The notes: a model not told the origin generated them from the letters alone. A DNA stretch of 64,000 nt from Peribacillus frigoritolerans (GCF_001636405.1 NZ_KV440950.1:3762778-3826777), one strand, 5' to 3'. Counted from the stretch's first letter, positions 1,866 to 26,312 are shown. Numbers and translations: made by a program.

Positions 1866-1947
1866 AAGCACACATGGTAGATTAATCCTATTCTGGTTTT
1901 TGCACCAGCCTCCAATTGTATTGAGAGCCGTAGAAAGGATGTTTTCA

Positions 1948-10601: not shown

Positions 10602-12029
10602 CTATTTTACCGTTTTATTGGGTTGCCCATTTGTTAGGATAGTAGCATCGATTTTCTTTCTGGTAAATTTAAAATAGTAAAAGACATAACAAGCTACAAT
10701 GAAGCCGAATCCTATATACAGTGAGGTCCGTTGTGTCGGATCGAAAGCGGTAAACACGACGATACCTACGCACATGATGAGGCAACCAATTGGAACTAGA
10801 GGGAAGAATGGAACCTTAAATTTTAAATCCTCCAACTTTCCACCAGACGCAATATACTGTTTGCGGAATTTATACTGTGCAAACGCAATCGCCATCCACG
10901 TAACCAACCCTCCAACACCACTGATAGCAAGCAGCACTACAAATAATGTTTCTTCAGCCATGACACTAGTAAGCAAGGATAGCAAGGCAAAGACGAGAGT
11001 CACGAGTAAGGCGTTCATAGGTATACCGCGTTTGTTTACCTTTCCGAATGAACGTGGAGCCTGCCCGCTTTGTGAAAGTGAGAAAAGGATTCTCGTACAA
11101 GCAAACAAACCTGTATTTCCCACCGAAAGAATTGCTGTTAAAATAACGAAGTTCATAATATCAGCTGCATAAGGAATACCGATCATATCGAATACAGTTA
11201 CAAACGGGCTTTCGAGTATACCCGCTTTTTTCCACGGAACAATTGCTGATAAGACAAAAGTTGCTAGTACATAGAAAATTAAAATACGGATGACGATACT
11301 CCGGATTGCTCTTGGGATACTCTTTTCGGGATCCTCTGTCTCACCTGCTGCAACACCCATAATTTCCGAACCCATAAACGCATAGACGACTGTCATCATC
11401 GATATAAACACACCAATCAATCCCGTTGGAAATAATCCGTCACCAATAAAGTTTGAAAATAGCGGGGCAGATTGTCCCTTTATAGGAACCAATCCGAACA
11501 CCGCTGCTCCGCCAATCACGATAAAAAAGAGTACAGCAATTACTTTAATTGCAGAGAACCAATATTCCGTCTCCGCAAAGCTTCTTATTGTCAAAGCGTT
11601 TATACCGAATAAAAGCAAGGCGAAAACTGTACACCACACCCATACTGGTACATTTGGAAACCATCTGGCCATCAGTAAACTAGCCGCAATAAACTCTAGC
11701 CCTACGTAAATAGCCCAGCTCAACCAGTAAGTCCAGCCGATCATAAACCCAGAGGCGGGGCCGATAAAGCGCTCTGCATGGGCTTGAAATGAACCGGAGA
11801 CCGGCATCACTACGGATAGTTCTCCAAGACAAACCATGACCATGTACATAAGTAAGCCCCCGACCAAATAGGCAGTAATGGCCCCTACAGGTCCGGCTTC
11901 ACCGATTGCATACCCGGACCCTAGGAAAAGACCAGTTCCAATGACTCCACCTATGGAAAGCATAAATAAATGTCTACTTTCCATCGAACGTTTTAATTCT
12001 TTTGGTTGACTCCCTTGTACCGACTTCAT
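10602..12029 (-). CDS. Amino-acid permease, APC superfamily (AAT type)
   Basis: 475 residues with 12 predicted membrane segments. The N-terminus is classical for the amino-acid transporter family (RHLFMLSIGGVIGTGLFLGSG), with further landmarks GPVGAITAYLVGG and the conserved EFIAASLL region. Homologues move lysine, arginine/ornithine, GABA or aromatic amino acids by proton symport. It follows the dehydrogenase gene by 70 bp on the same strand, so the two are likely cotranscribed, possibly from the weak sigma-54 site at 13635. Substrate is not determinable from sequence. Confidence 0.87.
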   Translation of the reverse strand: MKSVQGSQPKELKRSMESRHLFMLSIGGVIGTGLFLGSGYAIGEAGPVGAITAYLVGGLLMYMVMVCLGELSVVMPVSGSFQAHAERFIGPASGFMIGWTYWLSWAIYVGLEFIAASLLMARWFPNVPVWVWCTVFALLLFGINALTIRSFAETEYWFSAIKVIAVLFFIVIGGAAVFGLVPIKGQSAPLFSNFIGDGLFPTGLIGVFISMMTVVYAFMGSEIMGVAAGETEDPEKSIPRAIRSIVIRILIFYVLATFVLSAIVPWKKAGILESPFVTVFDMIGIPYAADIMNFVILTAILSVGNTGLFACTRILFSLSQSGQAPRSFGKVNKRGIPMNALLVTLVFALLSLLTSVMAEETLFVVLLAISGVGGLVTWMAIAFAQYKFRKQYIASGGKLEDLKFKVPFFPLVPIGCLIMCVGIVVFTAFDPTQRTSLYIGFGFIVACYVFYYFKFTRKKIDATILTNGQPNKTVK

Positions 12030-12098: not shown

Positions 12099-13274
12099 TT
12101 ATCGAGTAGCTACCTTTTTGGACGGATCCTCAAACTCTAATAAATCGCTGACTTCCGGTTTGAAAATTTCATTAGCAACGTCTCGCTGATACCTGTTTTG
12201 TTTCTTTGCTTCCGAAAATAGTTGATAGGTATTTTTTCGGCATAGCTTTTCAATATCATCAATCACAGCCTGCGGATCCGGTTTGACCAGTCCAAAAATA
12301 ACTGCGTCATAAAATCTTATTGCACCTAGGTTCGCAACAAAATCATTGACGATGTCAATTCCCTTTTGTTTGATGATTTCGTCTCCTTCAGAAGAGATTG
12401 GAATATTAGCAGCTTCAACAATCAAGCTTGCTTTTACGGTACCAGCATTAGAATGGTTAATAACGTCCTCTAATGCACATGGGATGAGAATATCGCAGTC
12501 CACATTAAGCCAGTCCGAGTTTGGCCTTACAGTATAGTTCGGTTCAAAAAAGTCTTGATCCATTTCCCCGTATACATTCTTATGGTCAATGAGCTTTTGA
12601 ACATCTAATCCTTCTTCACATGTGACTAACAAGTTCGCATCCGAAATTCCGACGACTTTATAACCTAATTGAGACAATTTCAATGCGCAACTTGCACCTA
12701 CACAACCGAAGCCTTGGATGACAACCCTCGCACCGTCTTTACCATTTTTAAATTTCCAAGCTTCATCTGCCGAAAATGCACCACCATATCCTGTGACAAC
12801 ATCATTTAAAAGCAATCCGTCAATTCTTGTTTTCATCAGCCCATCAAAATCCTTTATCCCTTGAAGGACAGCAGGATCTTGTTTCATTGACTTCGTCAGA
12901 GGGATATCTATGCCGAATTCGTTAAAGATTTTAAGTACATCTTCATATTTAGTACCTAGATCACTTCCCAAAGATACGCCGATATCAATATAAGGCATCA
13001 TTGCAATTAAAAATCTTCTTAATACGGCATATGCATCCGGAGCTTTGTAATCATAAGAAATACCTGCTTTACATCCGCCAGTCGTTCCGCTGTCACAAGC
13101 TACATACTTATAAGCCATGGCCTCGGCCAATCTTTTAACCTCTTCTTTTGTAACTGACGGATGCATTCTCGTACCGCCGCCTGTATAGCCTTTCATGAAG
13201 TTATGAACAACAAGCCATCCTTGTGCATCTGTTTCCGTATCATTCCACTCTACAACTAAATATGGTTTAGACAT
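12099..13274 (-). CDS. Glu/Leu/Phe/Val dehydrogenase family protein
   Basis: 391 residues. The N-terminal substrate domain has the glycine-rich GYTGGGTRMHPSV and the catalytic-lysine segment DSGTTGGCKAGISYDY, where the family usually has GGGKGGI; Cys replaces a Gly before the Lys. The Rossmann domain shows VVIQGFGCVGASCALKL. The enzyme should deaminate an amino acid oxidatively with NAD(P)+. The altered active-site loop suggests an unusual substrate. A purine-rich RBS (AGGGGG) precedes the start. It stands upstream of the APC permease. Confidence 0.85.
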   Translation of the reverse strand: MSKPYLVVEWNDTETDAQGWLVVHNFMKGYTGGGTRMHPSVTKEEVKRLAEAMAYKYVACDSGTTGGCKAGISYDYKAPDAYAVLRRFLIAMMPYIDIGVSLGSDLGTKYEDVLKIFNEFGIDIPLTKSMKQDPAVLQGIKDFDGLMKTRIDGLLLNDVVTGYGGAFSADEAWKFKNGKDGARVVIQGFGCVGASCALKLSQLGYKVVGISDANLLVTCEEGLDVQKLIDHKNVYGEMDQDFFEPNYTVRPNSDWLNVDCDILIPCALEDVINHSNAGTVKASLIVEAANIPISSEGDEIIKQKGIDIVNDFVANLGAIRFYDAVIFGLVKPDPQAVIDDIEKLCRKNTYQLFSEAKKQNRYQRDVANEIFKPEVSDLLEFEDPSKKVATR

Positions 13275-13634
13275 TCCAATACCCCCTAAAGATTTCTTAT
13301 TTCACTGCTTCAATTACTATCGTAACTTACATGCAAGCCAGCCGAAGTTTGTAATCATAATGATTGTATTTTTTAGAATCCGGGTAGCAAATTCATGTAT
13401 CACCCCCTCTATATGTAAATTCATAGCGGCTCTTCTTTCGCTTCTAAAAAACTTCATGTTTTCATCGAGTGCGACTCCCTCATATTTTTTAGCAAACCAT
13501 GGTCGCGCCCACATTTTCACATAGAGATTCTTCACCCTGACCATTTTAAGCGCTTTCAAAAAGAAGGAGGTCCATCGATTAGTCTTGCCGCCATCTCATT
13601 CCCCCAAAAAACTCCCTCTTATAGTTTAGATACT

Positions 13635-13650
13635 TGCAAAATTCATCCTA
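13635..13650 (-). promoter_or_regulatory. Weak sigma-54-like site (P4) upstream of the dehydrogenase
   Basis: The minus strand reads TAGGATGAATTTTGCA. Aligned with the better sites it keeps TTGCA at -12, but -24 has AGG instead of GGC. It is followed upstream by the same ~50-bp sequence seen beside P2 and P3 (TATATAAAAC..GGAT..GATAAGGTTT), so it is homologous to them even if degenerate. It is about 360 bp from the dehydrogenase start. Confidence 0.45.
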
Positions 13651-13718
13651 ACTTTTTGTATATAAAACCGGATACCGATAAGGTTTATAAAAGTGAAAGT
13701 GAGGCAATTGTGTTCATA

Positions 13719-13734
13719 GAGTGCCTGCAAACTA
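13719..13734. promoter_or_regulatory. Candidate enhancer half-sites near P4
   Basis: GAGT-GCCTGCAA-ACTA lies 69 bp upstream of P4, at the same relative place as the GAGT..ACTC elements near P2 and P3. Weak on its own; supported only by position and repetition. Confidence 0.3.
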
Positions 13735-13934
13735 CCCGCACGTGTTCAATCCAAAAGAAAAGATGAATTACCTGGCCTCGAAAAAAACTATTTCAGTAAT
13801 AATCCTTGGGAGTTCCATAATAACATTGAAACTTCCACAATGACCTCTTCCATTTAATAGTAAGGTGACGTCTCAGCTATTTTTGGGATTATCGATTATT
13901 ATTAGTAAACCCCAACATTAAAGTCTCTTGTATG

Positions 13935-13966
13935 AAAAACTTGCAGAAGATTCCCTGCAAGCTTTT
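13935..13966 (-). terminator. Terminator of the second aldehyde dehydrogenase gene
   Basis: CTTGCAG and CTGCAAG flank an 8-base loop, followed by TTTTTC on the minus strand, just past the stop. The region 13,275-13,930 otherwise holds only the P4 site and a doubtful short frame at 13317-13559. Confidence 0.8.
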
Positions 13967-13976
13967 CGTTAATCTT

Positions 13977-15449
13977 CTATTCAAACCAATGAATCGGCTT
14001 CGGAGATAGATTAATGTTAATCTGTTTCGTTTCCTGGTATTCACCCAATCCATACGTACCAAGGCTTCTGCCGATGCCACTTTGTTTATAGCCACCCCAT
14101 GGGGCTTGAATATTCGTAAGGTGGTAGGCGTTCACCCATGTGATGCCAGCTCGGACTTTTTTGATGACACGCAAGGCTTTGTTTTGATCTGTAGAGAATA
14201 CAGCACCCGCAAGTCCAAATACTGTGTCATTGGCAATCTTGATTGCCTCTTCTTCATTTTTGAATTTCTGAATGGTGACGACAGGACCGAAGATTTCTTC
14301 TCTGACAATCCGCATATCACTTGTTACATGAGTGAAGACGGTAGGTTCAATGAAAAATCCTTTTTCTAAACCGTCTTTCTTGATTCGATTGCCGCCCTGA
14401 GCAAGGTTTGCACCTTCTTCTTTTCCAATCCGAATGTATTCTAGTATGCTCTCGAAGTGCTTTTCGCTGACAATGGCTCCCATCTGGGATTGCTTGTCAT
14501 TTCCGGGACCAACTCTTATCCCTTTTGCTTTTTCTACATATTTTTCCACAAATTCATCATAGATCCCCTCTTGAACAAGAATGCGGCTTCCCGAAGAGCA
14601 AACTTGCCCAGAACCCATGAAAATGCCAAATAAGGAGTAATCGACGGCTGTTTCCAAATCTGCATCATCAAAGATGATGTTCGGAGATTTTCCTCCCAGC
14701 TCAAGGGACACCTTTTTCATATTGCCTGTTGCGGCCTGCATGATATGGCGGCCGACCCCTGTGCTTCCAGTAAAGGAAACAACGTCCACATCATCGCTTT
14801 CGGCAATCGTCTGGCCAACAACCGATCCAGATCCCATAAGGAGGTTGGCTACTCCCTTTGGTAAATCGGACTCATCAATCAGCTCAAACACTTTTACCGC
14901 TGTCATCGGAGTAATTTCTGCCGGTTTTAAAAGAATGCTATTACCTGCTGCCAATGCTGGAGCAATCTTCCATACACTCATCAATAAAGGGAAATTCCAA
15001 GGAACAATCAATCCCGCAACACCTATCGGTTCCTTTACGATCAATGTCTGCATATCCTCGGAGGCTTCATACGCTTGGTCATTAGGTATATTAAGCAGAC
15101 CTGCATAATAACGAAATGTATTAGCGGCCTCTTCAGCATCCGACCGTGCTTCTCTTCTCGTTTTTCCGTTATTTTGTACTTCCAACTCTGTTAACTCATC
15201 AATGTTTTCCTGCAATTTATCAGCAATCTGAACTAAAACCGCCGCTCTTTCTTGCGGAGAACGGTCAGACCAGACACCACTTTCAAATGTTCTCTTCGCT
15301 ATTTTGATTGTTTCTTCTGTTTCTTCTTTTGTTGCTTTCGCGGCTCTGGCAATGACTTCCTGTGTAGCAGGATTAATGATATTAAGTTTTTTCGGGTCAC
15401 TTGATTCTACCCATTGCCCATTTATATATTGTTTCAATTCTTTTGTCAT
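13977..15449 (-). CDS. NAD+-dependent aldehyde dehydrogenase (betaine-aldehyde DH-like)
   Basis: 490 residues from the ATG at 15449, which is preceded by GGGAGGAAACAAAGTT. A longer frame to 15608 has no RBS and lies partly in the leader. Landmarks are VPWNFPLLMSVWKIAPALAAGN, the loop FTGSTGVG, the general base Glu250 in SLELGGKSPN and Cys284 in GQVCSSGSR. Relatives include betaine-aldehyde, phenylacetaldehyde and other semialdehyde dehydrogenases. It has its own sigma-54 promoter (P3) about 260 bp upstream, so it is probably part of the Rieske regulon and could oxidise the aldehyde released by the oxygenase. Confidence 0.9.
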   Translation of the reverse strand: MTKELKQYINGQWVESSDPKKLNIINPATQEVIARAAKATKEETEETIKIAKRTFESGVWSDRSPQERAAVLVQIADKLQENIDELTELEVQNNGKTRREARSDAEEAANTFRYYAGLLNIPNDQAYEASEDMQTLIVKEPIGVAGLIVPWNFPLLMSVWKIAPALAAGNSILLKPAEITPMTAVKVFELIDESDLPKGVANLLMGSGSVVGQTIAESDDVDVVSFTGSTGVGRHIMQAATGNMKKVSLELGGKSPNIIFDDADLETAVDYSLFGIFMGSGQVCSSGSRILVQEGIYDEFVEKYVEKAKGIRVGPGNDKQSQMGAIVSEKHFESILEYIRIGKEEGANLAQGGNRIKKDGLEKGFFIEPTVFTHVTSDMRIVREEIFGPVVTIQKFKNEEEAIKIANDTVFGLAGAVFSTDQNKALRVIKKVRAGITWVNAYHLTNIQAPWGGYKQSGIGRSLGTYGLGEYQETKQININLSPKPIHWFE

Positions 15450-15709
15450 AACTTTGTTTCCTCCCCACTTGTCAGCTTCCAGTCTTGCAAATGCGAAATC
15501 AAGACTGTGTTGCTGATGATGACAGTCATACACCCTTGATTTGCAGCACTTAAATAATTCAATCCTGCGATACCGAACAACAAATTCAATCTGGCCAATT
15601 ATATCCACACTCTACAACTTAGCCGCATTCCGGAAAGTGATCCATTTACAGTGCTTTAACAATTCACACCACTGTATTCTACAGTTTTTTCAATGATAAT
15701 GATAATTTA

Positions 15710-15725
15710 TGCAAATTTCACGCCA
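15710..15725 (-). promoter_or_regulatory. Sigma-54 promoter P3 (aldehyde dehydrogenase)
   Basis: The minus strand reads TGGCGTGAAATTTGCA: the -24 GG and -12 GC are 12 bp apart as required, and 14 of 16 positions fit TGGCACRNNNNTTGCW. The 11 bases GAAATTTGCA plus neighbours are identical to P2. Confidence 0.8.
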
Positions 15726-15774
15726 ACTTTATTCTTCAATAAAAGCTGATAATGATAAGCTTTCATTCATAAGG

Positions 15775-15794
15775 TTGAGTACGCTCGTACTCAA
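15775..15794. promoter_or_regulatory. Perfect palindrome, candidate enhancer (UAS) for the sigma-54 activator
   Basis: TTGAGTACG-CT-CGTACTCAA is a perfect 9+2+9 inverted repeat about 50 bp upstream of P3. Bacterial enhancer-binding proteins bind such palindromes. The half-site GTACTCAA recurs upstream of the reductase promoter at 22726-22733. Confidence 0.6.
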
Positions 15795-15958
15795 AGAGGC
15801 TCTTTTAAAACTCACCTGGAAGTAATCGATGAGCTTGGCTGGCTTATTACAATCAAATGTAAGCGCTCTATTAAAATAATAAACACTACACAATCTTTTG
15901 ATAGGCTTTGAGACTCTGCTGAAGTTAGCTATTCTTATCACGATCAAAAGCGAACAAA

Positions 15959-17128
15959 CTATTTACTCTTTTTAAATTCTTTCTTAATATTTTCCAATAA
16001 GTTTTTATCTGTTAAAACATCGTATCCCGTATAAGCTAATGCTAGTGCACCATTAACAAGTGCTTGACTGCCTTCTTCTGATACTGTTCTATCTGCAAAT
16101 TCCTGGGTATGTAATACTAACTCTGTATCATTCAATCCAATAAATGGATGAATTGCTGGTACGACACGACTTACATTTCCCATATCAATAGATGCATTAC
16201 TATGTTCAGCAGTTAGAATCGGTTGAACGATGATTTCTTGTAAATTCTTAGTGAAAGCTTGGGATAGATATTGATTTGTAACCATATTATCGTAGCTTAT
16301 TTGATAATTTGATATTTCAAGCTCAGAACCCGTCATAAGGGCAGCACCATTTGCGATATTTTTTATTTTTTTTACAATTTCATCTAAAGTGGAACGTTGT
16401 TTTGCTCTAATATAAAATTGAGCGACTGCTAAATATGGAACAATATTCGCGGCTTGACCACCTTCAGAAATAATCCCGTGCACACGAACATCTGTCGGCA
16501 AATGCTCTCGAAGTGCATTTATACCATTAAAAAGTTGGATAACACTATCCAGTGCATTAATTCCATGTTCAGGAGCCGTCGCTGCATGCGATGCTTTTCC
16601 TTTATATTTGAATTGAAGTGCATCTACCGCCAAAGTTGTTCCACTTTCAACGGATACATTATTAGGATGGAGAATCATCGCAACATCTACACTTTCAAAT
16701 ACTCCTTCTTGACTCATCGGAACTTTGGCACCATTCGTTTCCTCTGCCGGAGTACCTAATACGACAACACTTCCTCCTACTTCACTTATCAGCTTGCTAA
16801 GGATAATACCAGCGCCCACACTCATCGTGCCGATCAAATTATGTCCGCACCCATGGCCAATTTCAGGCAAAGCATCATATTCTGCTAAAAAGGCTATTGT
16901 AGGACCAGCTTTTTCACCTTTAAATTCAGCTTTAAAAGAAGTTGGACGGTCAACCAATCCTGTTTCAATCCGAAAATCGTGTTCAGACAATAAGTTTGTC
17001 AGTAATTGCATTGATTCAAATTCCTTGTCACCGAGTTCAGGGTTTCTGTACATCTGATCACTGATTTCCCATAATTTTGACTTTATTTTATCTAATTCAT
17101 GTTTAAGTGTATCTTTCACTATTAACAT
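15959..17128 (-). CDS. M20-family amidohydrolase/peptidase
   Basis: About 390 residues, full length. Metal-site motifs of the family are visible: AEYDALPEIGHGCGHNLIG and PAEETNGAKVPM, with the dimerisation-domain segment GKASHAATAPEHG. Homologues cleave N-acyl or dipeptide-like amide bonds (aminobenzoyl-glutamate, N-acyl amino acids, Xaa-Arg). The start is uncertain: ATG at 17128 sits very close to GGAAGG, and a GTG three codons in has better spacing. It follows the broken YfcC-like transporter, so the transport of its natural substrate may be lost. Confidence 0.85.
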   Translation of the reverse strand: MLIVKDTLKHELDKIKSKLWEISDQMYRNPELGDKEFESMQLLTNLLSEHDFRIETGLVDRPTSFKAEFKGEKAGPTIAFLAEYDALPEIGHGCGHNLIGTMSVGAGIILSKLISEVGGSVVVLGTPAEETNGAKVPMSQEGVFESVDVAMILHPNNVSVESGTTLAVDALQFKYKGKASHAATAPEHGINALDSVIQLFNGINALREHLPTDVRVHGIISEGGQAANIVPYLAVAQFYIRAKQRSTLDEIVKKIKNIANGAALMTGSELEISNYQISYDNMVTNQYLSQAFTKNLQEIIVQPILTAEHSNASIDMGNVSRVVPAIHPFIGLNDTELVLHTQEFADRTVSEEGSQALVNGALALAYTGYDVLTDKNLLENIKKEFKKSK

Positions 17129-17194
17129 CACCTTCCTTATTTTTCAGATTATGTTTTCTAAATATATTGTTTGTTACAAGAATACTCCTGCTTC

Positions 17195-17710
17195 CTAAAA
17201 TGGTCCATAATTGATCAATTGGGCTATTATTAAGAAAATTACTCCGACATTCACTATGAGAAGGAAATAAGGAAAAACCCATCTAACCCATCTTACGTAC
17301 GGAATACCCGCAATAGCTAAGCCACCCAATAGTACTCCTCCTGTAGGGAAGTTCATATTTGACACTCCATCCCCCATTTGGGAAGCAAGTACTGTTGTTT
17401 GTCTCGTTCATCCCATCATATCTATATCTCCCAATGGCCTGACAATTGGCATAGTTAAAGCTGCTTGCCCACTGCCAGAAGGAACTAAAAAGTTAAGAGA
17501 TAACTGAACAAAGAATATCCCGATTGCATTCAACGCTGGTGGGAGGCTTCCAGGTAATCCTATCCCTAGAAAAAGAGGGAGTTCCGCAATTCCTTGAGCA
17601 ACTCCTATATTATATGGGTTGGTATTACCTGTTAGGAACCTGGCCATCGCTCCAAGACATACCATTGCATAACCAGTCATTGCATCGTAACCAAGCGCAA
17701 TTGCCATCGG
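17195..17710 (-). pseudogene. YfcC/AbgT-like transporter remnant with TGA interruption
   Basis: One frame reads IALGYDAMTGYAMVCLGA, NTNPYNIGVAQGIAELPL, LVPSGSGQAALTMPIVRPLG, then MMG-stop-TRQTTVLASQMGDGVSN and continues to LINYGPF. These are C-terminal landmarks of YfcC-type carrier proteins. The N-terminal half is missing, residues appear lost after LFLGIGL, and a TGA at about 17408 replaces a sense codon. The neighbouring amidohydrolase is the kind of enzyme such carriers serve. Confidence 0.8.
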
Positions 17711-17814
17711 AATAATAATTCCAATATGATAAATAGATGGACATATTACTACATATTGCCATCAATTCTATCTAACTTTTAATAGACACATAGGCTCTCT
17801 AAGAGCGAGCGGTC

Positions 17815-19488
17815 TTATCCGTGATTTGGACGGAAAGATGCGATGTATTCGTCCGAATCTTTGTATTCCAATACTCCTACTGCTTCTACATCTACTACAA
17901 CCATATAAGGTTTCTTGCTTGCGATTGCATTCGCTAACCCTTCCTTGAACTCATCGACCGAGCGTACTTTCTCTGATTCGAAGCCCATTGATTTTGCCAT
18001 CATGACGAAGTCTGGGTTTTTCAAGTCTACAGATGTAAGTCTGCCATAAGCTGCTTCTTGGTAGTATCTTAAGATTCCATATCCGCCATCGTCGAATAAT
18101 AGAACGATAATCGGCGTATCTTCTTGAATCGCAGTGATCATCTCACCAGCATTCACCATGAATCCGCCGTCTCCTGCAATAAGAACGACAGGCTTTTCTG
18201 GTTGACCAATTTGGGCACCGATCGCCATTGGCAAGCCTTGTCCGATACCTCCGCCGGTCATGTAGAGGTAATTTCTTGGTTCATAAATGTCGAACAATTT
18301 ATTTCCCCAAGTGTATCCAGGAATGGTTACGTCAGTCACCAAGATCGTATTCTCAGGCAGCTGTTCACGCATGATATCTGCAACTTCTCCGTAAGGCCCA
18401 ATTTGGCTGCGAAGGTCATCACGAACTGCTTGACGGGCAGACTTTACTTCATCTACAAAAGCTGCATCTGGATTGATCTCCTTATTTTTCAAAGCACTGT
18501 TAATCTCGTGTAAAACTGCTTTGGCATCTCCTACCAGTGTATACAATGTATCAAAATTGCGGTTAAATGCATTTGGATTCAAATCGATATTTATGTGATT
18601 TTCAGGTACTGGGAGCGTCCAGCTATACGTTTCACTACCGCGGAAACGGACCCCGATACTAATGAGTAAATCTGATTTTTTCAATAGTTCCTCCATTTGA
18701 GGTGTAACCGCAAAGTTGCCGATGCAAAGAGGATGATTTTCAGGGATAGACCCTTTCCCGGATTCACTTGTAACGACAGCAGGCTGAATTTGATCTACCA
18801 ACGCTTGGAGTTCCTCGGATGCTCCCGAAGCAATAACTCCATTTCCTGCCCAGATGACCGGTCTTTTTGCAGTGGCAATTTTTTCAACCACATCAGCTGG
18901 AATGTTGATTTTTACTTCTGGATTTTGAACCGTTTCCACATCGATCAATTGATTTTGCGGAATAATTTGAGCTTGGAAATTTGTTGGAATGGAAATAGTT
19001 ACTGGCCCTGTAGGAACAGTCAGTGCCTCTTTGATCGCTTTGCGCATAAAGGGTGTGATTTGCTTTGGACGCTTCAACAAATAAGCTGTTTTGTTCGCGC
19101 CCTCCATCATTTTTAACTGGTCTTTAGCTTCGTGGATATAACGTTGATCCGTTCCAATATAATTAGAATCAGCTTCCCCTGTAATGTGCAATAACGGAGT
19201 CCCGGAGTTCCATGTTTCTGTCAATGAACCTGCACCGTTCCCTGCCCCAGCACCAGTACTTGTTAATACAACGCCCAATTTTCCTGTAGCACGCGCATAG
19301 GCATCAGCCATGTTGACCGCTCCACTTTCACCGCGGGAAGTGACCATGCGGATGCTTCCTTCACGCAGCATCGCGTCATAAATCGGCATATTGTGGATAC
19401 TAACGATCCCGAATACTACGTCCACTTCTGCTTGTACAAGCTCTTTTACGATTGCATCTGCAACTGTGAATTCTGTTTGATTGTTCAT
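17815..19488 (-). CDS. Thiamine-diphosphate-dependent enzyme (acetolactate synthase-like)
   Basis: 557 residues with the three domains of the family. The catalytic Glu is in TSRGESGAVNMADAYAR, the central domain follows, and the ThDP/Mg motif is GDGGFMVNAGEMITAIQ.. ending DDGGYG. Homologues are acetolactate synthase, benzoylformate decarboxylase, oxalyl-CoA decarboxylase and carboligases; large-subunit anabolic ALS features are not evident and no small subunit follows. GGGAGG precedes the start. Its place below the Rieske gene suggests it decarboxylates or ligates a 2-keto acid of the same pathway. Substrate unknown. Confidence 0.85.
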   Translation of the reverse strand: MNNQTEFTVADAIVKELVQAEVDVVFGIVSIHNMPIYDAMLREGSIRMVTSRGESGAVNMADAYARATGKLGVVLTSTGAGAGNGAGSLTETWNSGTPLLHITGEADSNYIGTDQRYIHEAKDQLKMMEGANKTAYLLKRPKQITPFMRKAIKEALTVPTGPVTISIPTNFQAQIIPQNQLIDVETVQNPEVKINIPADVVEKIATAKRPVIWAGNGVIASGASEELQALVDQIQPAVVTSESGKGSIPENHPLCIGNFAVTPQMEELLKKSDLLISIGVRFRGSETYSWTLPVPENHINIDLNPNAFNRNFDTLYTLVGDAKAVLHEINSALKNKEINPDAAFVDEVKSARQAVRDDLRSQIGPYGEVADIMREQLPENTILVTDVTIPGYTWGNKLFDIYEPRNYLYMTGGGIGQGLPMAIGAQIGQPEKPVVLIAGDGGFMVNAGEMITAIQEDTPIIVLLFDDGGYGILRYYQEAAYGRLTSVDLKNPDFVMMAKSMGFESEKVRSVDEFKEGLANAIASKKPYMVVVDVEAVGVLEYKDSDEYIASFRPNHG

Positions 19489-19961
19489 GGTAATATCCTC
19501 CCAAAATGTCTAATAGTTTCTAAGAAGCTTACTCCGTTAGTTTAAAGGAAAATCCAATCCGGTTACTCCATCCTGAATTCTCCTGTCTAAATAACAAATC
19601 CCCACTGTCTTACGGAGATTTCCCTTAAAGCCTTCTCCTTCAATTCCTGAAACAAATGGTCCTCTTCCTGACTCCTTCAATTTTTTCATTTTTTTGTAGC
19701 TAAACTTACGTCATATGGAATGACAAAGTTAATGACCAAAATAACTAAACCTGTATCGAAGTCCTTGATTTATGCCGAAAGGTTCTGAATAATGTGACCA
19801 TTGTCGTATCAGTAACGATGAGCACTTAGGAAGGCATTCTTGCCATTCGGAGTGCTTAGCATAAGCTTTGTGCCCCTGGTACCTGAAGACGGATAGTCAC
19901 TTATTCCTGAGATTTTTTGCTTTCTTAAAAAAGAAGGAGTTCCGCTATCTAGTTCCTTCTT
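19489..19961 (-). pseudogene. Gap holding the 3' relic of a second SSS symporter
   Basis: Within 19687-19815 the minus strand reads VTDTTMVTLFRTF, then after one frame change IKDFDTGLVILVINFVI. This matches the tail of the intact symporter at 8692 (TLFPSLPQVIKDLDIG and LAILIINIVV). The remainder of the gap has no open frame. A transporter gene has been largely deleted between the Rieske and ThDP genes. Confidence 0.7.
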
Positions 19962-21011
19962 TCACTCACCATTGATGGCGTTTTCATAAAGGCCGTGGAA
20001 AAATTTGATTGCATACTCAGTCGGAGAATAAACTCCGTATTTGAAGGCATTCGTGTGGAAACCTTTTTGCAATAACTCCACAAGATCGAAATCTTCTTTC
20101 CTGACCTGATCCACGAATCGAATCAGTTCTTTCTGCTCCTCATTAATTTCATCTGATTTAAAGTAGTAGCTATAGATAGCCAGCGATTTATCCGGAGTCA
20201 GCGGCAAAATTTGGCTTGTCGTCATATTTCCGGCTTCTCCAGGATAGATGCTCACCATCAAGTTCGGCCATACCCAATAGAAATTGGCGTGCTCCTCTTG
20301 ATCTTCATTTGTTTTGTTGGTCAGTTTGGAATATTGACATGAAAAATTGTCATGCAAATCAATGTGGTAATTTTTCATATCGAAGGTTTTTGAAAACTCA
20401 GGGTGTGCAATCGTACAATGGTCACACTCCAAATAATTATCAACAACCGCTTTCCAGTTGGCATCAATGACTCTTTGTGTTACGCGAACCTTTTTCAATG
20501 AATCTAAGAACGTGTATTTTTCCAAGTTGGCCATCAATTCTCCATATGTTTCCGCCATTGGCCTTGCCTCTGGGTTCAAATTTATGAAGATCAATGACTG
20601 GAATACTTCAAGCTTCACTTGTGTCATGCAGCTATGGTTGCCTAATTCATTTGTATCAAAGTTTGGTGCCCTATTCAATTTTCCGTTCAATTGAAATGTC
20701 CAGCCGTGATAAGAACACATGAAAACCTTTTTATTCCCTTGTTCGCCTTTTTCCACTTTCGATCCTCTATGAGGACAAATATTGTAAAAGGCATTCAATT
20801 CATTATTTTTATCTCTACTGATGATTAATGGCTGATCTGCTATATCAAAAGTGAAGAAGTCTCCAACCTTTTCCACTTGGCTTGTATGTCCGGCTAAAAT
20901 CCAGTTGTTTTGGAAGATTTTTTTCTTTTCCTCTTCAAATATTTGCGGGTTCACATAATTACCGTATGGAAGAGTGTGTTCCAAGTTCTGATTTGTTTGT
21001 AACTGTTTCAT
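19962..21011 (-). CDS. Rieske non-heme iron oxygenase, alpha subunit (quaternary-amine type)
   Basis: 349 residues from the ATG at 21011, preceded by GAAGGGGGA; an ATG eight codons earlier is less well placed. The Rieske [2Fe-2S] centre is C79-P-H81-R-G and C99-S-Y-H102-G-W. The catalytic domain has NYLECDHCTIAHPEF, giving His198 and His203 as iron ligands, with Glu195 where most relatives carry the bridging Asp. The Glu form is known from the carnitine monooxygenase/glycine-betaine demethylase branch. It is expected to attack a C-N bond of a betaine-like substrate using electrons from the ferredoxin encoded just upstream. It has its own sigma-54 promoter P2. Confidence 0.88.
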   Translation of the reverse strand: MKQLQTNQNLEHTLPYGNYVNPQIFEEEKKKIFQNNWILAGHTSQVEKVGDFFTFDIADQPLIISRDKNNELNAFYNICPHRGSKVEKGEQGNKKVFMCSYHGWTFQLNGKLNRAPNFDTNELGNHSCMTQVKLEVFQSLIFINLNPEARPMAETYGELMANLEKYTFLDSLKKVRVTQRVIDANWKAVVDNYLECDHCTIAHPEFSKTFDMKNYHIDLHDNFSCQYSKLTNKTNEDQEEHANFYWVWPNLMVSIYPGEAGNMTTSQILPLTPDKSLAIYSYYFKSDEINEEQKELIRFVDQVRKEDFDLVELLQKGFHTNAFKYGVYSPTEYAIKFFHGLYENAINGE

Positions 21012-21071
21012 TTTTTCCATTCCCCCTTCTATCATTCAAATCCCTGAAAATGTTTTCTCCTAAAATTCAAT

Positions 21072-21087
21072 TGCAAATTTCATGCCA
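21072..21087 (-). promoter_or_regulatory. Sigma-54 promoter P2 (Rieske oxygenase)
   Basis: The minus strand reads TGGCATGAAATTTGCA, 15 of 16 matches to TGGCACRNNNNTTGCW with correct GG-GC spacing. Expected start of transcription is near 21060, about 50 bases before the ATG. Confidence 0.88.
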
Positions 21088-21156
21088 ACTACTTTTTTAT
21101 ATAAAAGCCGATATTGACGAGGTTTTAAAAAATGAAAGCGAGTTCATTAGCGTTCA

Positions 21157-21174
21157 GAGTGTGTACCTAAACTC
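21157..21174. promoter_or_regulatory. Candidate enhancer element near P2
   Basis: GAGT-GTGTACCTAA-ACTC lies 70 bp upstream of P2 and overlaps the 3' end of the ferredoxin region. It shares GAGT..ACTC half-sites with the perfect palindrome near P3. Confidence 0.35.
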
Positions 21175-21185
21175 ACTCATTGGCA

Positions 21186-21452
<267 letters not shown>

Positions 21453-22490
21453 TTAAAAATTACTTTTAACTAATGATTTTTCTTTCTTCGTTTCTTTTTC
21501 TTCCATTAATGTTGTACTGTGCACCGTATGCAATTTAGCTTTCGGATCCAAATACACTTTTACGTTGCTGACAGCAATTGGTGCTTCGCCAAAACCGGTC
21601 GCTATCAATTTCACTTTTCCTTCATATGTGCAAATGTCACCAACTGCATAAATACCTTCTATGTTCGTTTCCATTTTGGAATTCACTACAATCGAGTTTT
21701 TCTCGAATTCCAATCCCCAATCTTTAATTGGTCCAAGTGAAGAAATAAAGCCGTAATTTACGAGTACATCGTCAACATCCATTTCGATTGTTTCGTCATA
21801 TTTCGCATGTTTGACTATCACTTTTTCTACTTTCTCATCTCCGACAAGTTCAACCGGAACATATGGAGTCAATATCTCCACCTTCGACCGATTTAATAAT
21901 TCTACACTGTGCTCATGAGCACGGAATTGATCTCGGCGATGAACGATGGTTACTTTTTCTGTGATCGGCTCCAACATCAACGCCCAGTCAACTGCCGAAT
22001 CTCCTCCGCCAAACACGGACACTTTTTCACCTTCAAACTGTGCTAAGTTTTGAACGGAATAATGTAGATTCGTTTCTTCGAATTTGTCTTCCCCTTCAAG
22101 CTTCAGCTTGCGTGGTTGGAAAGCACCGTTTCCTGCGGTAATAATGATTGTTTTCGAATAGTGAACTTCCTTATCCGTTTCAATGGTGAAAATGCCTTCT
22201 TTATCTTTTTCCACATGTTCAACCGATTGTCCGAGACAGGTTTGAACTTCGAACTGATTCATTTGTTCAACCAGGTTGCTGATGAGTTCTTGTGCCTTCA
22301 CTTTAGGGAATCCAGCAACATCATATATAAACTTCTCGGGATAAAGAGCCGATAATTGCCCACCTAACTGTGGTAAACTCTCAATAATTTTCACGGATGC
22401 TTGGCGCATGCCTGCATAAAAAGCGGTGTATAATCCCGCCGGTCCTCCGCCAATAATGGTAATATCTACAACCTCACGATGGTCTCCCAT
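21453..22490 (-). CDS. Ferredoxin-NAD(P)+ reductase, thioredoxin-reductase-like (YumC type)
   Basis: 345 residues. FAD-binding [16 protein letters not shown] is at the N-terminus, NAD(P)-binding [15 protein letters not shown] in the middle and the second FAD segment [25 protein letters not shown] near the end. It lacks the CxxC of thioredoxin reductases, as expected for the YumC class. GGAGGG precedes the start. It is the first gene behind the perfect sigma-54 promoter P1, followed by the ferredoxin. Role: pass electrons from NAD(P)H to the ferredoxin for the Rieske oxygenase. Confidence 0.9.
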
Positions 22491-22636
22491 TTAAGTGCCC
22501 TCCTTCATCTATTTACAGTTCAAAATATTTCAACTATTATAAAGTGCAAAGTAATAAGATTTTATCGGCATAACGAATCTTTATATGTAATCGTGTACAC
22601 CAACCTCCCACTCTTATTACTGTACTCTATAATACT

Positions 22637-22652
22637 TGCAATAACCGTGCCA
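22637..22652 (-). promoter_or_regulatory. Sigma-54 promoter P1 (reductase-ferredoxin), perfect consensus
   Basis: The minus strand reads TGGCACGGTTATTGCA, a full match to TGGCACRNNNNTTGCW. The start site would be near 22625, leaving a leader of about 135 bases before the reductase ATG. Confidence 0.93.
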
Positions 22653-22721
22653 ACTTTTAAAGAGCGGCGAAACCACATGTTGATTCACTAAATCGCCCAA
22701 CATTCATTTTTTTTGAACGTT

Positions 22722-22745
22722 TTTGTACTCAACTGAGTTCTCTCA
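22722..22745. promoter_or_regulatory. Candidate enhancer in the divergent region
   Basis: TGTACTCAACTGAGTTC contains the half-site GTACTCAA seen in the palindrome near P3 and an internal ACTCA-AC-TGAGT repeat. It is about 75 bp upstream of P1 and just before the activator gene, so it could serve P1 and autoregulation. Confidence 0.45.
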
Positions 22746-22777
22746 AACTCACATTATGTTTTTCAGGAGGTCACAAC

Positions 22778-24148
22778 ATGATTTTATCTAATTTTTTAAT
22801 CAATTTCGATTTGGATATGGAAACGCTTATTAAAATTTTGGATTATTCTTCTGATGAAATTTTTGTTTTGGATAAGAATATGAAAATTATTTATGTAAAT
22901 GATGCCTGTAAGAAGCATTACGGTTTAAATAAGGAAGAAGTTATAGGGAAATCAAGCTTGGAATTAGTGGATAAAGGCTATTGGTATCCCTCAATTTTTC
23001 CCGATATATTGGAAAGAAAAGAGCCGATTATGATTAAACAAACCACTGTCCTCGGTGCAGAGCTGCTCACTTCTGCTATCCCTATTTTAAATGAAAAGAA
23101 GGAAGTGGAATTGGTTGTAACAACCGCAAGGGAATTACAAAGCTATAAAATGCTGAAGGTAAAAGAAAAGGATTCAGATCAAAGTAAAGAAACGGAAGAC
23201 CCATTCGCCAGCATCATCACCAATAATGAAAAAATGAAATATGTACTGAAGTTTGCCAAGAAGGTAGCGGCTGCAAACTCTACTATATTAATTCTTGGTG
23301 AGTCCGGAACAGGTAAAAGCGTTTTGGCCCAATATGTCCACGAAAACAGCAGCAGAAAGAACGGTCCCTTTTTAACAATCAATTGTGCAGCTATTCCTGC
23401 TGAATTAATGGAGTCCGAGCTTTTTGGCTATACACCAGGAGCTTTTACAAATGCAAACCGTTCCGGAAAAAAAGGGCTGCTGGATAGTGTTAATGGAGGT
23501 ACAGTGTTTCTTGATGAAATCGGGGACATGCCTTTGCCTCTTCAGGCCAAAATGCTTCAAGTCATTCAGGAGAAAAAATTCATTCCTATTGGTGGAAATA
23601 AAGAAAAGAAGGTGGATATCCGTATTATTGCCGCGACCAATAAAGACTTGAACGAAATGGTGAAAAATAAAACGTTTCGGGAAGATTTATATTACAGGCT
23701 GAACGTAGTGGATATCAAAATGCTTCCCCTTCGAGAAAGAAAGGAAGATATCAGCCCGCTCACTTATTATTTCTTATATAAATTTAATCGAAACTATGAA
23801 ATGAATAAATTAATTTCGGAAGATTGTCTCAAATGGCTGACCCATTATTCCTGGCCCGGAAACGTAAGGCAATTAGAAAACCTCATTGAAAGGCTTGTCA
23901 TTACAAGCGATGATGTCATCGGTATCGATGACCTACCCGAAGGAATTTATAACCATAGCCAGCTGAAGATTGGAAAAAATGCCCCTACCTCCCTCAATGA
24001 GGCGATAGAATTGGCAAAAAAGGAGATGGTTCTTACATCTTACAAACTGAATCGAAGCTCTAGGCGTGTCGCCAAGGATTTACAAATCAGCCAAACACAT
24101 GCAGCCAAATTGATCAGAGAGTATTGTCAGGACTTGAAGGAGGATTGA
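22778..24148 (+). CDS. Sigma-54-dependent transcriptional activator (PAS - AAA+ - Fis HTH)
   Basis: 456 residues. A PAS sensor domain covers about residues 14-120. The AAA+ domain has Walker A GESGTGKS (174-181), the sigma-54 contact loop GAFTNA (221-226) where the family norm is GAFTGA, and Walker B VFLDE (243-247). A Fis-type helix-turn-helix closes the protein (RRVAKDLQISQTHAAKLIREY). AGGAGG precedes the ATG. It is transcribed away from the reductase operon, whose promoter P1 is a perfect sigma-54 site. It almost certainly activates that operon and the other -24/-12 promoters to the left. Confidence 0.92.
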   Translation: MILSNFLINFDLDMETLIKILDYSSDEIFVLDKNMKIIYVNDACKKHYGLNKEEVIGKSSLELVDKGYWYPSIFPDILERKEPIMIKQTTVLGAELLTSAIPILNEKKEVELVVTTARELQSYKMLKVKEKDSDQSKETEDPFASIITNNEKMKYVLKFAKKVAAANSTILILGESGTGKSVLAQYVHENSSRKNGPFLTINCAAIPAELMESELFGYTPGAFTNANRSGKKGLLDSVNGGTVFLDEIGDMPLPLQAKMLQVIQEKKFIPIGGNKEKKVDIRIIAATNKDLNEMVKNKTFREDLYYRLNVVDIKMLPLRERKEDISPLTYYFLYKFNRNYEMNKLISEDCLKWLTHYSWPGNVRQLENLIERLVITSDDVIGIDDLPEGIYNHSQLKIGKNAPTSLNEAIELAKKEMVLTSYKLNRSSRRVAKDLQISQTHAAKLIREYCQDLKED

Positions 24149-24389: not shown

Positions 24390-25218
24390 CCGGTTCTGGT
24401 GCAAAAAACAATAGAGACATAGAACCTACATGGCTTGTTTAATGCCAGATTATGATGCAATTCCAAACAACTTCACCCGTTGGTGAAGTTGTCCTTTTTT
24501 CATCATATGCATCGCTTCAATGCCACTCAATATAGAAATGGCTGTTTCATACGACTTGAATCCCAACATAGAACGCACACGTTTCTTAATGAAACGATGA
24601 TCTTGTTCCACTATATTGTTAAGGTACCGTATTCGTCTGATTTTAACGCCTTCAGGCATCATCTTTTCCTCTTTTAACTGCTCAATGGCTAAAGGATACG
24701 CTGGGTTTTTATCAACCGTAACGACACGTGGTGTTGTAGAATGACAAACAGCCAAGGCTTTTTTGAAAAAGCACTTGGCTGCTTTGGTATCTCTTGATTT
24801 ACTTAAATAAAAGTCAATTGTATTTCCTTCAGAATCCACAGCACGATATAGATACATCCATTGGCCTTTGACTTTGATATACGTTTCATCGACTCTCCAG
24901 GAGTCATTTGTTGGCTTAAGATGACGCCGTACTCTTTCATCTAATTCAGGCCCGTATTGATGAACCCAACGCATAATGGTTGTGTGAGCTATGGATAAGC
25001 CGCGTTCCTCCATCATTTCCACCAAATCACGAAAACTAAGGCTGTACCGTAGGTACCATCTAACCGTTAACAAAATAATATCAGGCTGATAATGCTTCCA
25101 TTTGAACAAAATTTGTTTTTCCATATCGATCACACACCTTTTTTAGGGTAATAGTATCAGTATGTCCAAGATTTAGAGATTCATTGCAATTATTTTGAAG
25201 TTTTTGCACAAGAACCGG
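24390..25218 (-). mobile_element. IS6-family insertion sequence, complete
   Basis: Near-perfect terminal inverted repeats bound the element: left CCGGTTCTGGTGCAAAAA and, at the right end in reverse complement, CCGGTTCTTGTGCAAAAA, one mismatch in 18. Between them lies one intact transposase gene. The 8-bp flanks are not direct repeats of each other, so this copy may have arisen by recombination or adjacent deletion rather than a simple insertion. Confidence 0.88.
24450..25133 (-). CDS. IS6-family DDE transposase
   Basis: 227 residues, normal length. An N-terminal HTH is followed by the DDE core: first Asp in WRVDETYIKVKG, second Asp in VVTVDKNPAYPLA, Glu in YLNNIVEQDHRFIKKR. All three residues are present and there is no frameshift, so it looks functional. 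The start is either the first codon of MIDMEKQ or its second Met. Confidence 0.93.
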   Translation of the reverse strand: MIDMEKQILFKWKHYQPDIILLTVRWYLRYSLSFRDLVEMMEERGLSIAHTTIMRWVHQYGPELDERVRRHLKPTNDSWRVDETYIKVKGQWMYLYRAVDSEGNTIDFYLSKSRDTKAAKCFFKKALAVCHSTTPRVVTVDKNPAYPLAIEQLKEEKMMPEGVKIRRIRYLNNIVEQDHRFIKKRVRSMLGFKSYETAISILSGIEAMHMMKKGQLHQRVKLFGIAS

Positions 25219-25373: not shown

Positions 25374-26312
25374 TTATTGGTTAAAACGTCCTCGCTGACG
25401 AAGTAATTCACGGTTCAAGTTTGGATCCTTTTCAAATGCAGCACGTCCGTGAAGCCAAAAAATATTATTGACGACAACCAAATCACCAACAGGAAGTTCT
25501 AGTTCAATTACACTTTCATCAGCTTCCAATGAATCAGAGAAATCACGTAGGTATTTTGCCTGTTCAATGGATTCAGGATAAACAAATTGATCGATAAAAC
25601 AAACACCGGGCTTGTTATTATGATTGAAGAAAGTTAAACGTTCAATCTCTTGATCAATATTTTTACTTTTTGGAGCCTTATACGTAAATTTTTGATTTGA
25701 TAATGGATGTTTGATGTACTTATCAAGTTCCTTCCAATCATCAAGGTGTAATAAACGTGATTCGCCTCCGCGGGCATTTTTTTCGATCGTTTTCATCATT
25801 AGCAACCAGTCTGTCGGCTCATCTACAAACGTACCGTCTGTATGAAGTGTAAATAAACGATACGCCTGACGTAGATATGAATCGCTGCTATCTGTATCTT
25901 GTACACTAAAACGTGCATAGTATTTTCCAGACATTGCATCATGATTTGGAGTTCCAAGTAAGTAAGAAATCGCTGTTGCGAAAATAACATATTCATCAGT
26001 ATTTTCAGTGACGCCTTCTAAACCAAGAGTAAATCCGCCGGACTCTCGATCATGAACGATACTCCGAAGTACTTCGCCAAACTCTTCTCCTACTTGATTC
26101 AATAGGTAAGAAGCGACAATGTGACGTGCGTATGGTGTATATTCCAAATGTTGTACTGATTGATTATCCTTTAATAATACTTCCAAAAAACTTCCAATTG
26201 CCTCTTTTGAGATTTCAATATGATACAAACGATCTGTTTGCGAGTGAACTTTAACCTCATATTTTTCAGTTTTCTTTTCAAACTTAGCTTTCCTTTTTTC
26301 TGCAATACTCAT
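25374..26312 (-). CDS. glaH: Glutarate 2-hydroxylase (CsiD/GlaH family)
   Basis: 312 residues matching E. coli CsiD in length and landmarks: DAMSGKYYARFSVQ, DSSDSYLRQAYR, the iron facial triad starting in LHTDGTFV (His and Asp), LLMMKTIEKNARGG, SRLLHLDDWKELD, and the distal His in NNIFWLHGRAAFEKDP with the 2-oxoglutarate-binding Arg in RELLRQRGRF. The family hydroxylates glutarate to L-2-hydroxyglutarate in lysine catabolism, using Fe(II), O2 and 2-oxoglutarate. RBS AGGAGG precedes the start. The next enzyme, LhgO, is only a fragment upstream, so the product may not be reoxidised locally. Confidence 0.9.
   Translation of the reverse strand: MSIAEKRKAKFEKKTEKYEVKVHSQTDRLYHIEISKEAIGSFLEVLLKDNQSVQHLEYTPYARHIVASYLLNQVGEEFGEVLRSIVHDRESGGFTLGLEGVTENTDEYVIFATAISYLLGTPNHDAMSGKYYARFSVQDTDSSDSYLRQAYRLFTLHTDGTFVDEPTDWLLMMKTIEKNARGGESRLLHLDDWKELDKYIKHPLSNQKFTYKAPKSKNIDQEIERLTFFNHNNKPGVCFIDQFVYPESIEQAKYLRDFSDSLEADESVIELELPVGDLVVVNNIFWLHGRAAFEKDPNLNRELLRQRGRFNQ

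Follow-up and report, generated by a model that had tools for sequence, protein, structure and literature searches.

The 64,000-nucleotide stretch of the Peribacillus frigoritolerans genome considered here (GCF_001636405.1, NZ_KV440950.1:3762778-3826777; the window) carries a catabolic gene cluster centered on a Rieske oxygenase, with a ferredoxin, a reductase, and a divergently transcribed sigma-54 activator (Table 1). A preliminary description, made from the sequence alone, presented the cluster as a sigma-54 regulon for the degradation of a betaine-like or other quaternary amine. Its open reading frames (ORFs) were recovered at the same coordinates, with the expected Pfam and NCBIfam families. 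The regulon and the kind of oxygenase are supported; what that description lacked is a glutarate arm, a GAGT-N8-ACTC dyad above the promoters, and the probable descent of two promoters from those of Rieske genes. On balance, the region appears to be a sigma-54 regulon that lets the cell grow on N6-trimethyllysine and delta-valerobetaine (5-trimethylaminovalerate), a reading that we favor slightly more than we doubt it. Orthologs of the window-type Rieske protein define 15 named loci (L033-L047), nine of which are full clusters (L033-L041); named Neobacillus and Siminovitchia genomes share the window-type cluster, which is present in, for example, Neobacillus niacini NBRC 15566 and Neobacillus mesonae FJAT-13985.

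Table 1. Features of the Rieske oxygenase cluster and its flanks, in window coordinates
Feature	Position	Strand	Observation
Second aldehyde dehydrogenase (ALDH2), predicted glutarate-semialdehyde dehydrogenase	7191..8633	-	NF042993, 667 bits (cut-off, 770)
Sodium:solute symporter (SSF)	8692..10176	-	Nearest model MctP, 218 bits, far under the 625 cut-off
Amino-acid permease	10602..12029	-	Nearest model S-methylmethionine permease, 533.8 bits, below the 716 cut-off
Glu/Leu/Phe/Val-type amino-acid dehydrogenase (ELFVdh), predicted trimethyllysine dehydrogenase	12099..13274	-	ELFV Pfam families; GGGTR for KGGIR
P4, site before ELFVdh	13635..13651	-	TTAGGATGAATTTTGCA, AG where GG is expected
Dyad upstream of P4	13719..13734	-	1 mismatch
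Betaine-aldehyde-type aldehyde dehydrogenase (ALDH1), predicted 5-trimethylaminopentanal dehydrogenase	13977..15449	-	PDB matches
P3, site before ALDH1	15710..15726	-	TTGGCGTGAAATTTGCA, GG-N10-GC present
Dyad upstream of P3	15777..15792	-	Exact, GAGTACGAGCGTACTC
M20 amidohydrolase, optional member	15959..17131	-	TIGR01891, 224 bits (cut-off, 153.75)
DcuC-family transporter remnant	17213..17713	-	DcuC, 1.1e-17 (piece 17408-17707); two tblastn pieces
Thiamine diphosphate (ThDP) enzyme, predicted 2-oxo-acid decarboxylase	17815..19488	-	TPP_enzyme N/M/C; NF005470, 609.7 bits (cut-off, 495)
SSF transporter C-terminus remnant	19632..19793	-	43% to the L041 SSF (60 aa)
Rieske oxygenase, CntA-like group Va; predicted delta-valerobetaine monooxygenase	19962..21035	-	Best PDB match CntA; DNYLECDHC motif
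P2, Rieske gene promoter	21072..21088	-	TTGGCATGAAATTTGCA, GG-N10-GC present
Dyad upstream of P2	21159..21174	-	1 mismatch
Single-cluster [4Fe-4S] ferredoxin	21186..21437	-	Fer4_13, 1e-16
Thioredoxin-reductase-like ferredoxin-NAD(P)H reductase	21453..22490	-	Pfam/NCBIfam; a ferredoxin gene comes after it in several relatives
P1, reductase/ferredoxin promoter	22637..22653	-	TTGGCACGGTTATTGCA, perfect
Dyad upstream of P1	22735..22750	-	Exact; candidate activator site
Sigma-54 activator, divergent from the catabolic genes	22778..24148	+	Pfam PAS; Sigma54_activat, 1.8e-69
IS240/IS6-type transposase, between activator and CsiD	24450..25133	-	DDE_Tnp_IS240, 1.4e-47
CsiD/GlaH glutarate 2-hydroxylase	25374..26312	-	PF08943, 6.8e-121, 403.4 bits (cut-off, 27)
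DUF3870 protein	26644..26985	-	76-81% to its positional counterpart, an ORF between LhgO and CsiD, in L034/L036
LhgO (L-2-hydroxyglutarate oxidase) C-terminal remnant	27025..27183	-	53 aa, 87%

Among proteins of known structure, the oxygenase is closest to carnitine monooxygenase CntA (1e-56; next enzyme, 8e-32). Its DNYLECDHC...H stretch aligns with DNYMECYHC...H of CntA, so that Tyr203, Glu205, Cys206, His208, Cys209, and His213 are all retained, and the family marks CPH...CSYH, E205, H208, H213, and the Asp of RKED are present in the same alignment. In an alignment of 42 rows, selected for their similarity to the window protein, with YeaW added (a length limit removed no row), the Cys-X-X-Cys beside the mononuclear iron (ECDHC in the window) is kept throughout; position 203 is Tyr in 41 rows, including the window, and Phe in L019. 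In two reports, group V is defined by quaternary-amine substrates, with Cys-X-X-Cys in some members, and CntA position 203 is aromatic (Tyr or Phe) in group Va and Asn in group Vb (PMC7948474, PMC10952381). The first of them assigns the glycine betaine and stachydrine demethylases to group Vb and names carnitine, choline, and benzalkonium as known substrates of group Va (PMC7948474). Since it has Tyr rather than Asn at this position, the window enzyme is classed by these residues as a CntA-like member of group Va, the C-N-cleaving type. Together with the reductase and ferredoxin, this bears out the proposal of a three-component oxygenase of the quaternary-amine kind at the core of the cluster. 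The domain make-up of CntB sets the electron donors apart from those of CntA/CntB: a separate Fer4_13 [4Fe-4S] ferredoxin and a thioredoxin-reductase-like reductase stand in place of a CntB-type reductase. CntB itself is described as having a [2Fe-2S] cluster (PMC10952381, PMC7948474). In the protein tree, the window oxygenase and its orthologs from Neobacillus, Siminovitchia, and elsewhere group together, separate from the carnitine-type proteins; Escherichia coli YeaW has a very long branch, and its placement is unsure.

Genes lying beyond the coordinates of the preliminary description point to the substrate. There, an IS240-type element separates the activator from CsiD, which is followed by a DUF3870 protein and a remnant of LhgO. 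CsiD retains H160, D162, G163, H292, and R311 of the E. coli enzyme (the last two placed by counting along the alignment), its iron and glutarate residues (PMC6265302). In L034 and L036, LhgO, a DUF3870-type gene, and CsiD come after the second ALDH (the LhgO of L034 shows 47% to the E. coli enzyme), and in L037, L038, and L040, contig coordinates and lengths place CsiD just past the fetched stretch. CsiD is thus in or directly after the cluster in five of the nine full clusters; L035 lies near a contig end. It scores above the cut-off in 15/15 genomes with a Rieske ortholog versus 24/61 relatives (window's genome included), and, in the genus, is present in 12/12 genomes with a paralogous oxygenase, Rieske2, versus 8/24 others (p = 1.7e-4, ignoring kinship). 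In the latter count, the broken CsiD copies of G013 and G024 were taken as present, and genome G028 was placed with the Rieske2 genomes solely because of sequence identity. The glutarate arm can work despite the broken local LhgO because intact LhgO and CsiD genes are found elsewhere in the genome (G000:C1:3.039-3.042 Mb), after a 228-aa ORF that looks GntR-like by eye. A 113-aa ORF occupies the place of DUF3870 in this second operon, and relatives have ORFs of similar size. The DUF3870 protein is possibly a small partner in the glutarate pathway. CsiD and the LhgO remnant fix the carbon count and point to trimethyllysine and delta-valerobetaine.

The amino-acid end of the pathway is represented by a module of linked genes. 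Genes for the Rieske oxygenase, ThDP enzyme, ALDH, ELFVdh, and permease occur together in L033-L041, 9 of the 15 loci. The module is absent from all six others (L042-L047), in which a 524- to 545-aa gene adjoins the Rieske gene; it encodes a BCCT betaine carrier in the two of the six that were scanned (L042 and L045), and likewise in L015. In glutamate dehydrogenase, the Lys of the KGGIR motif binds the side-chain carboxylate of glutamate. ELFVdh has GGGTR instead, with Gly for this Lys in 20/20 aligned sequences (ORFs of 370 aa or less, namely three L022 fragments, were omitted), and keeps the two other lysines in all 20. No glutamate dehydrogenase model comes near its cut-off (highest score, 132.7 versus 750). 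By the loss of the side-chain Lys, ELFVdh is classed as something other than a glutamate dehydrogenase. The best PDB matches of ALDH1, whose start is probably the ATG at 15449 (judged by eye), are betaine aldehyde dehydrogenases (to 9e-157; next kind, 1e-131), and its score on the corresponding equivalog model TIGR01804 (589.7 bits; cut-off, 668.6) makes it a relative but not a member. ALDH2 is nearest to models of dicarboxylate-semialdehyde dehydrogenases, with 38% to E. coli GabD. The family matched by the ThDP enzyme, NF005470, carries no named function, and the model nearest to the permease describes a transporter of another onium amino acid.

This gene set, from the permease to the glutarate hydroxylase, therefore best fits a six-carbon amino acid with a terminal quaternary amine, N6-trimethyllysine. 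Gene content, families, key residues, the conserved promoters of the Rieske and reductase genes, the conserved dyad (below), and the co-occurrence and partial linkage of CsiD are computed results; all substrates, the order of the steps, the inducer, dyad binding, and what each promoter does are inferred. After import by the permease, trimethyllysine would be deaminated by ELFVdh; decarboxylation of the resulting 2-oxo acid by the ThDP enzyme would give 5-trimethylaminopentanal, which ALDH1 would oxidize to delta-valerobetaine. The oxygenase, with electrons from its own ferredoxin and reductase, would then hydroxylate the carbon adjoining the quaternary nitrogen, yielding trimethylamine and glutarate semialdehyde. 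ALDH2 would convert the latter to glutarate, CsiD would produce L-2-hydroxyglutarate, and LhgO, from the intact copy elsewhere in the genome, would form 2-oxoglutarate. The PAS-AAA+ activator probably binds the GAGT-N8-ACTC dyads and opens P1, P2, and P3. Whether the whole amounts to a complete pathway mineralizing N6-trimethyllysine, with a new Rieske activity, a new dehydrogenase/ThDP route, and a dedicated activator with a GAGT-N8-ACTC site, is a matter on which we are evenly divided.

The -24/-12 consensus of sigma-54 promoters keeps an invariant GG within a GG-N10-GC core. Of the four sites claimed in the preliminary description, P1 is perfect, and P2 and P3 keep this core, but P4 is probably a decayed site rather than a working promoter, because its GG is replaced by AG. 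Sites with up to two mismatches occur in the window at chance level (23 found versus 25 expected from shuffles), so the window by itself proves nothing; genome-wide, the strict motif is found in 23 places, versus 0 for the reversed pattern, and hence is no chance pattern. In relatives, each ORF was scanned over its first 60 bp and the 500 bp before it, with GG and GC fixed and up to two mismatches allowed. The scan omitted ORFs of less than 75 aa or with less than 33% identity to a window protein (including the L013-type ThDP enzymes) and counted L022 fragments as separate genes. A site precedes 34/196 genes (reversed control, 3/196). It is found before 21/36 Rieske ORFs: before 16/16 orthologs in the 15 named loci (14 perfect, one with one mismatch, and one with two), 4/4 Rieske genes of L014-L017, and the single one of L019. 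In L029-L032 it precedes the reductase gene (4/4) and not the Rieske gene (0/4), and no site with up to two mismatches precedes the L013-type Rieske genes (0/11). Reductase genes have a site in 8/9 cases. None is found before ALDH (0/9), second ALDH (0/24), permease (0/21), activator (0/30), ferredoxin (0/8), M20 (0/2), or CsiD (0/2) genes, and the few before ELFVdh (1/22), ThDP (1/9), and SSF (3/24) genes all have two mismatches. The -24/-12 sites are therefore conserved only before Rieske and reductase genes: conservation in relatives, on which the preliminary description had staked its four sites, extends to the Rieske and reductase promoters, but not to P3 and P4.

The same description noted a shared stretch beyond the core of P2, P3, and P4. 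Over the 100 bp above the box, this is well founded for P2 and P4 (alignment z = 16) and weak, taken alone, for P2 and P3 (z = 4.4; score, 16.5, with 18.5 for the best of 300 shuffles). In a comparison with six stretches from relatives, P4 comes nearest to the Rieske promoters of Siminovitchia terrae and Siminovitchia fordii (z = 18 and 17, respectively), and the best match of P3 is the second S. terrae Rieske promoter (z = 14.7). The gene order in S. terrae is Rieske-ELFVdh-permease-Rieske-ThDP-ALDH. Most simply, this order and the upstream homology suggest that the window derives from a similar arrangement and that P3 and P4 were inherited from lost Rieske copies, whose promoters remained before ALDH1 and ELFVdh. 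The SSF and DcuC remnants in the gaps fit a reshuffled cluster. A tblastn search of the gaps with the L013-L047 proteins found no Rieske remnant downstream of P3 or P4, so the evidence for lost copies consists of the promoter homology and the Siminovitchia gene order.

The GAGT-N8-ACTC dyad was spotted by eye in the 230 bp above the -24/-12 boxes. Across 33 upstream stretches it is exact in 19 (0.06 expected from shuffles) and present with at most one mismatch in 31 (1.9 expected), counts that are flattering because the motif was derived from the same sequences. The stretches of L031 and L044 have no match, and in L033, L035, L037, L038, and L040 over 200 bp separate the sole match from the box below it. 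Exact copies in the 64-kb window are confined to P1 and P3, and when one mismatch is allowed, copies are no more frequent than in shuffles (11 versus 14). Across 5.46 Mb, a dyad and box 35 to 95 bp apart are combined at two places, P1 and P3; the reversed control has no such combination. Its absence elsewhere in the genome, the independent part of the evidence, suggests that the regulon is confined to this cluster. The dyad is probably the binding site of the divergent activator.

The activator has PAS and AAA+ domains; Pfam gives no C-terminal DNA-binding family, and that part is assumed. A relative (67-83%) is found close to the Rieske gene in all the named loci but L041, which starts too late to show one (14 of 15). 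With an activator in the cluster, the GG-N10-GC core in P1 to P3, and a site before all 16 Rieske orthologs, the proposed sigma-54 regulon with a dedicated divergent activator is supported. The accompanying remark that sigma-54 systems are few does not apply to this genome, which has two sigma-54 genes (G000:C1:581737 and 5112127) and 25 activator matches, 20 of them strong.

A related set in the genus, L029-L032, provides a contrast. It has the activator, reductase, Rieske, and ALDH genes in 4/4 loci, the ferredoxin ORF in 3/4, an SSF gene, and a gene of about 360 aa that, in L029, the one of the four scanned, encodes an isocitrate/isopropylmalate-type dehydrogenase. In three of the four, the reductase box has an exact GAGT-N8-ACTC dyad above it. 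This gene set parallels the carnitine pathway of Acinetobacter baumannii (PMC11353897) and, by annotation only, E. coli dmlA-yeaV-yeaW-yeaX; in this genus it probably serves carnitine use. Carnitine-type and window-type sets occur together in 4 of the 15 named genomes (L089-L092). The contrast suggests that the downstream genes follow the substrate of the oxygenase, the use of carnitine by L029-L032 being itself a prediction.

The genome also contains a paralogous cluster, L013 (G000:C1:2427000-2446900), with D-2-hydroxyacid dehydrogenase, SSF, ThDP, ELFVdh, permease, ALDH2, and Rieske2 (55%) genes and an activator that differs from that of the window. Clusters of this type were fetched from 11 loci in the genus; a twelfth genome (G028) was recognized by identity. 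A third, more distant Rieske oxygenase of the genome (G000:C1:3292072-3292683; 36%, in a 472-aa frame) is possibly of the aromatic type.

Several observations weigh against the trimethyllysine pathway. L013 shares the permease, ELFVdh, SSF, and ALDH2 (77-84%), but its ThDP enzyme is unrelated (26%), ALDH1 is missing, and its D-2-hydroxyacid dehydrogenase has no firm role; within the 11 fetched loci, L013-type clusters have no -24/-12 site with up to one mismatch. CsiD is unlinked in three of the nine full clusters (L033, L039, and L041) and in all six loci lacking the amino-acid module, its co-occurrence figures ignore kinship, and genome G058, with a related Rieske protein (53%) and no CsiD above the cut-off, is a counter-example. 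The best PDB matches of ALDH2 are betaine aldehyde dehydrogenases (2e-103), and the M20 and SSF proteins have no firm role in the pathway. The pocket residues F258, N270, Y315, and F319 of CntA differ in the window oxygenase, but they also differ in the carnitine-type rows and so are no sign of a C5 substrate; a roomier pocket, considered as evidence for one, was dropped, since at these positions the carnitine-type rows depart from YeaW as well, in part with different residues. Finally, no carnitine-type Rieske protein was found in the window's genome, so the window enzyme could serve the need for carnitine.

That last point, together with CntA being the nearest solved enzyme, the active-site marks in common, and the BCCT carriers beside two orthologs, favors a plain carnitine or gamma-butyrobetaine oxygenase, with the dehydrogenase, ThDP, and CsiD genes serving other ends. 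This is improbable, though still the leading alternative: the genus has its separate carnitine-type set, co-resident with the window type as noted above, no isocitrate-type dehydrogenase is found among the proteins of the cluster, the five genes of the module keep together in nine loci, and CsiD and LhgO act on C5 rather than C4 compounds.

Slightly less probable again is a pathway in which the oxygenase acts first, on trimethyllysine itself, giving trimethylamine and allysine. An ALDH would form 2-aminoadipate, ELFVdh 2-oxoadipate, the ThDP enzyme glutarate semialdehyde, and the other ALDH glutarate for CsiD, so that identical genes would yield identical products. Against this order, ELFVdh is without the lysine that holds a side-chain carboxylate, ALDH1 is of the betaine-aldehyde type, and the Rieske ortholog is also found apart from the amino-acid genes, beside a BCCT carrier in two loci scanned.

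The same logic could lead to glutarate from a different C6 amino acid with an omega-cationic group, for instance homoarginine or dimethyllysine, as a glutarate end is compatible with C-epsilon cleavage of any C6 amino acid; the 5-guanidino-2-oxopentanoate decarboxylase model, moreover, gives the ThDP enzyme 325.4 bits, short of its 500 cut-off. We consider this unlikely, as the group Va signature and the betaine-aldehyde-type ALDH1 favor quaternary ammonium, and CntA does not accept dimethylamino or methylamino analogues (PMC7948474).

It is very unlikely that there is no single regulon, the activator governing only the reductase, ferredoxin, and Rieske genes, with P3 and P4 as relics and the rest ordinary amino-acid catabolism nearby. 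The resemblance of P3 and P4 to Rieske promoters, the lack of conserved sites before ALDH and ELFVdh genes in relatives, and the broken GG of P4 agree with it; P3, however, retains both a box and an exact dyad, and one promoter could serve the ALDH and ELFVdh genes because they lie downstream of the Rieske gene on the same strand in L033-L041. N-demethylation of glycine betaine, stachydrine, or a similar betaine, substrates offered in the preliminary description, can be dismissed almost entirely even though GbcA is the best NCBIfam match of the oxygenase (163.7 bits; cut-off, 670), because Tyr203 places the oxygenase in group Va rather than group Vb and N-demethylation yields no glutarate.

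The trimethyllysine pathway would combine elements of several known systems. Its oxygenase resembles CntA/CntB (YeaW/YeaX) as a group Va enzyme with Tyr203, Glu205, and Cys206/Cys209, predicted to cleave C-N to trimethylamine and a semialdehyde for an aldehyde dehydrogenase, but the similarity is only partial, and a C5 substrate is predicted. Whereas the A. baumannii carnitine pathway ends in malic semialdehyde and D-malate, the window has a glutarate/CsiD end and sigma-54 control. In the CsiD/LhgO pathway of lysine catabolism in E. coli and Pseudomonas putida, CsiD has the same iron and glutarate residues, but glutarate arises through transamination of 5-aminovalerate rather than, if our reading is right, Rieske C-N cleavage; the DUF3870 gene between LhgO and CsiD and the broken local LhgO are further differences. 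AruH/AruI-type arginine catabolism also proceeds by deamination of an omega-cationic amino acid, ThDP decarboxylation, and then an aldehyde dehydrogenase. It uses a transaminase where the window has a dehydrogenase, and the window adds the Rieske removal of the quaternary nitrogen.

Trimethyllysine is released from methylated proteins. In the gut microbiome, bacterial DavB/DavA make delta-valerobetaine from it, and this product is described as an obesogen and a five-carbon analogue of the carnitine precursor (PMC11773067). The same substrate and product are predicted for the window; DavB/DavA is an oxygenase/amidase route, whereas the window would use a dehydrogenase, a ThDP decarboxylase, and an aldehyde dehydrogenase and break delta-valerobetaine down further. 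Within the literature surveyed, DavB/DavA is the sole bacterial route to delta-valerobetaine found described. Titles and abstract openings of the papers listed, in a survey that left subscription journals mostly uncovered, revealed no bacterial delta-valerobetaine-degrading enzyme or oxygenase and no trimethyllysine dehydrogenase/decarboxylase route. If true, bacteria with this pathway would consume a gut metabolite that acts on the host and would be a further source of trimethylamine; the carnitine-type Rieske systems would gain a C5 member, and the company that CsiD keeps with the oxygenase would be explained. Every enzyme to assay is named by the cluster.

The remaining features are less directly connected. 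The M20 amidohydrolase is found in two of the nine full clusters (L035 and L040). In the window it adjoins the broken DcuC-family transporter, and an acylated form of the substrate was perhaps once imported and hydrolyzed. Just upstream of the SSF gene, a 64-aa ORF (10179-10370) shows 73% to an ORF adjoining the L020 SSF gene and might encode a small transporter subunit. Fifteen of 30 loci (L048-L062), with 28-34% over a part of the protein and the gene set absent, were left out of all counts; L054, L055, and L060 have isolated ALDH- or permease-like neighbors only. IS110-type transposase ORFs are found at the start of the window (255-2814).

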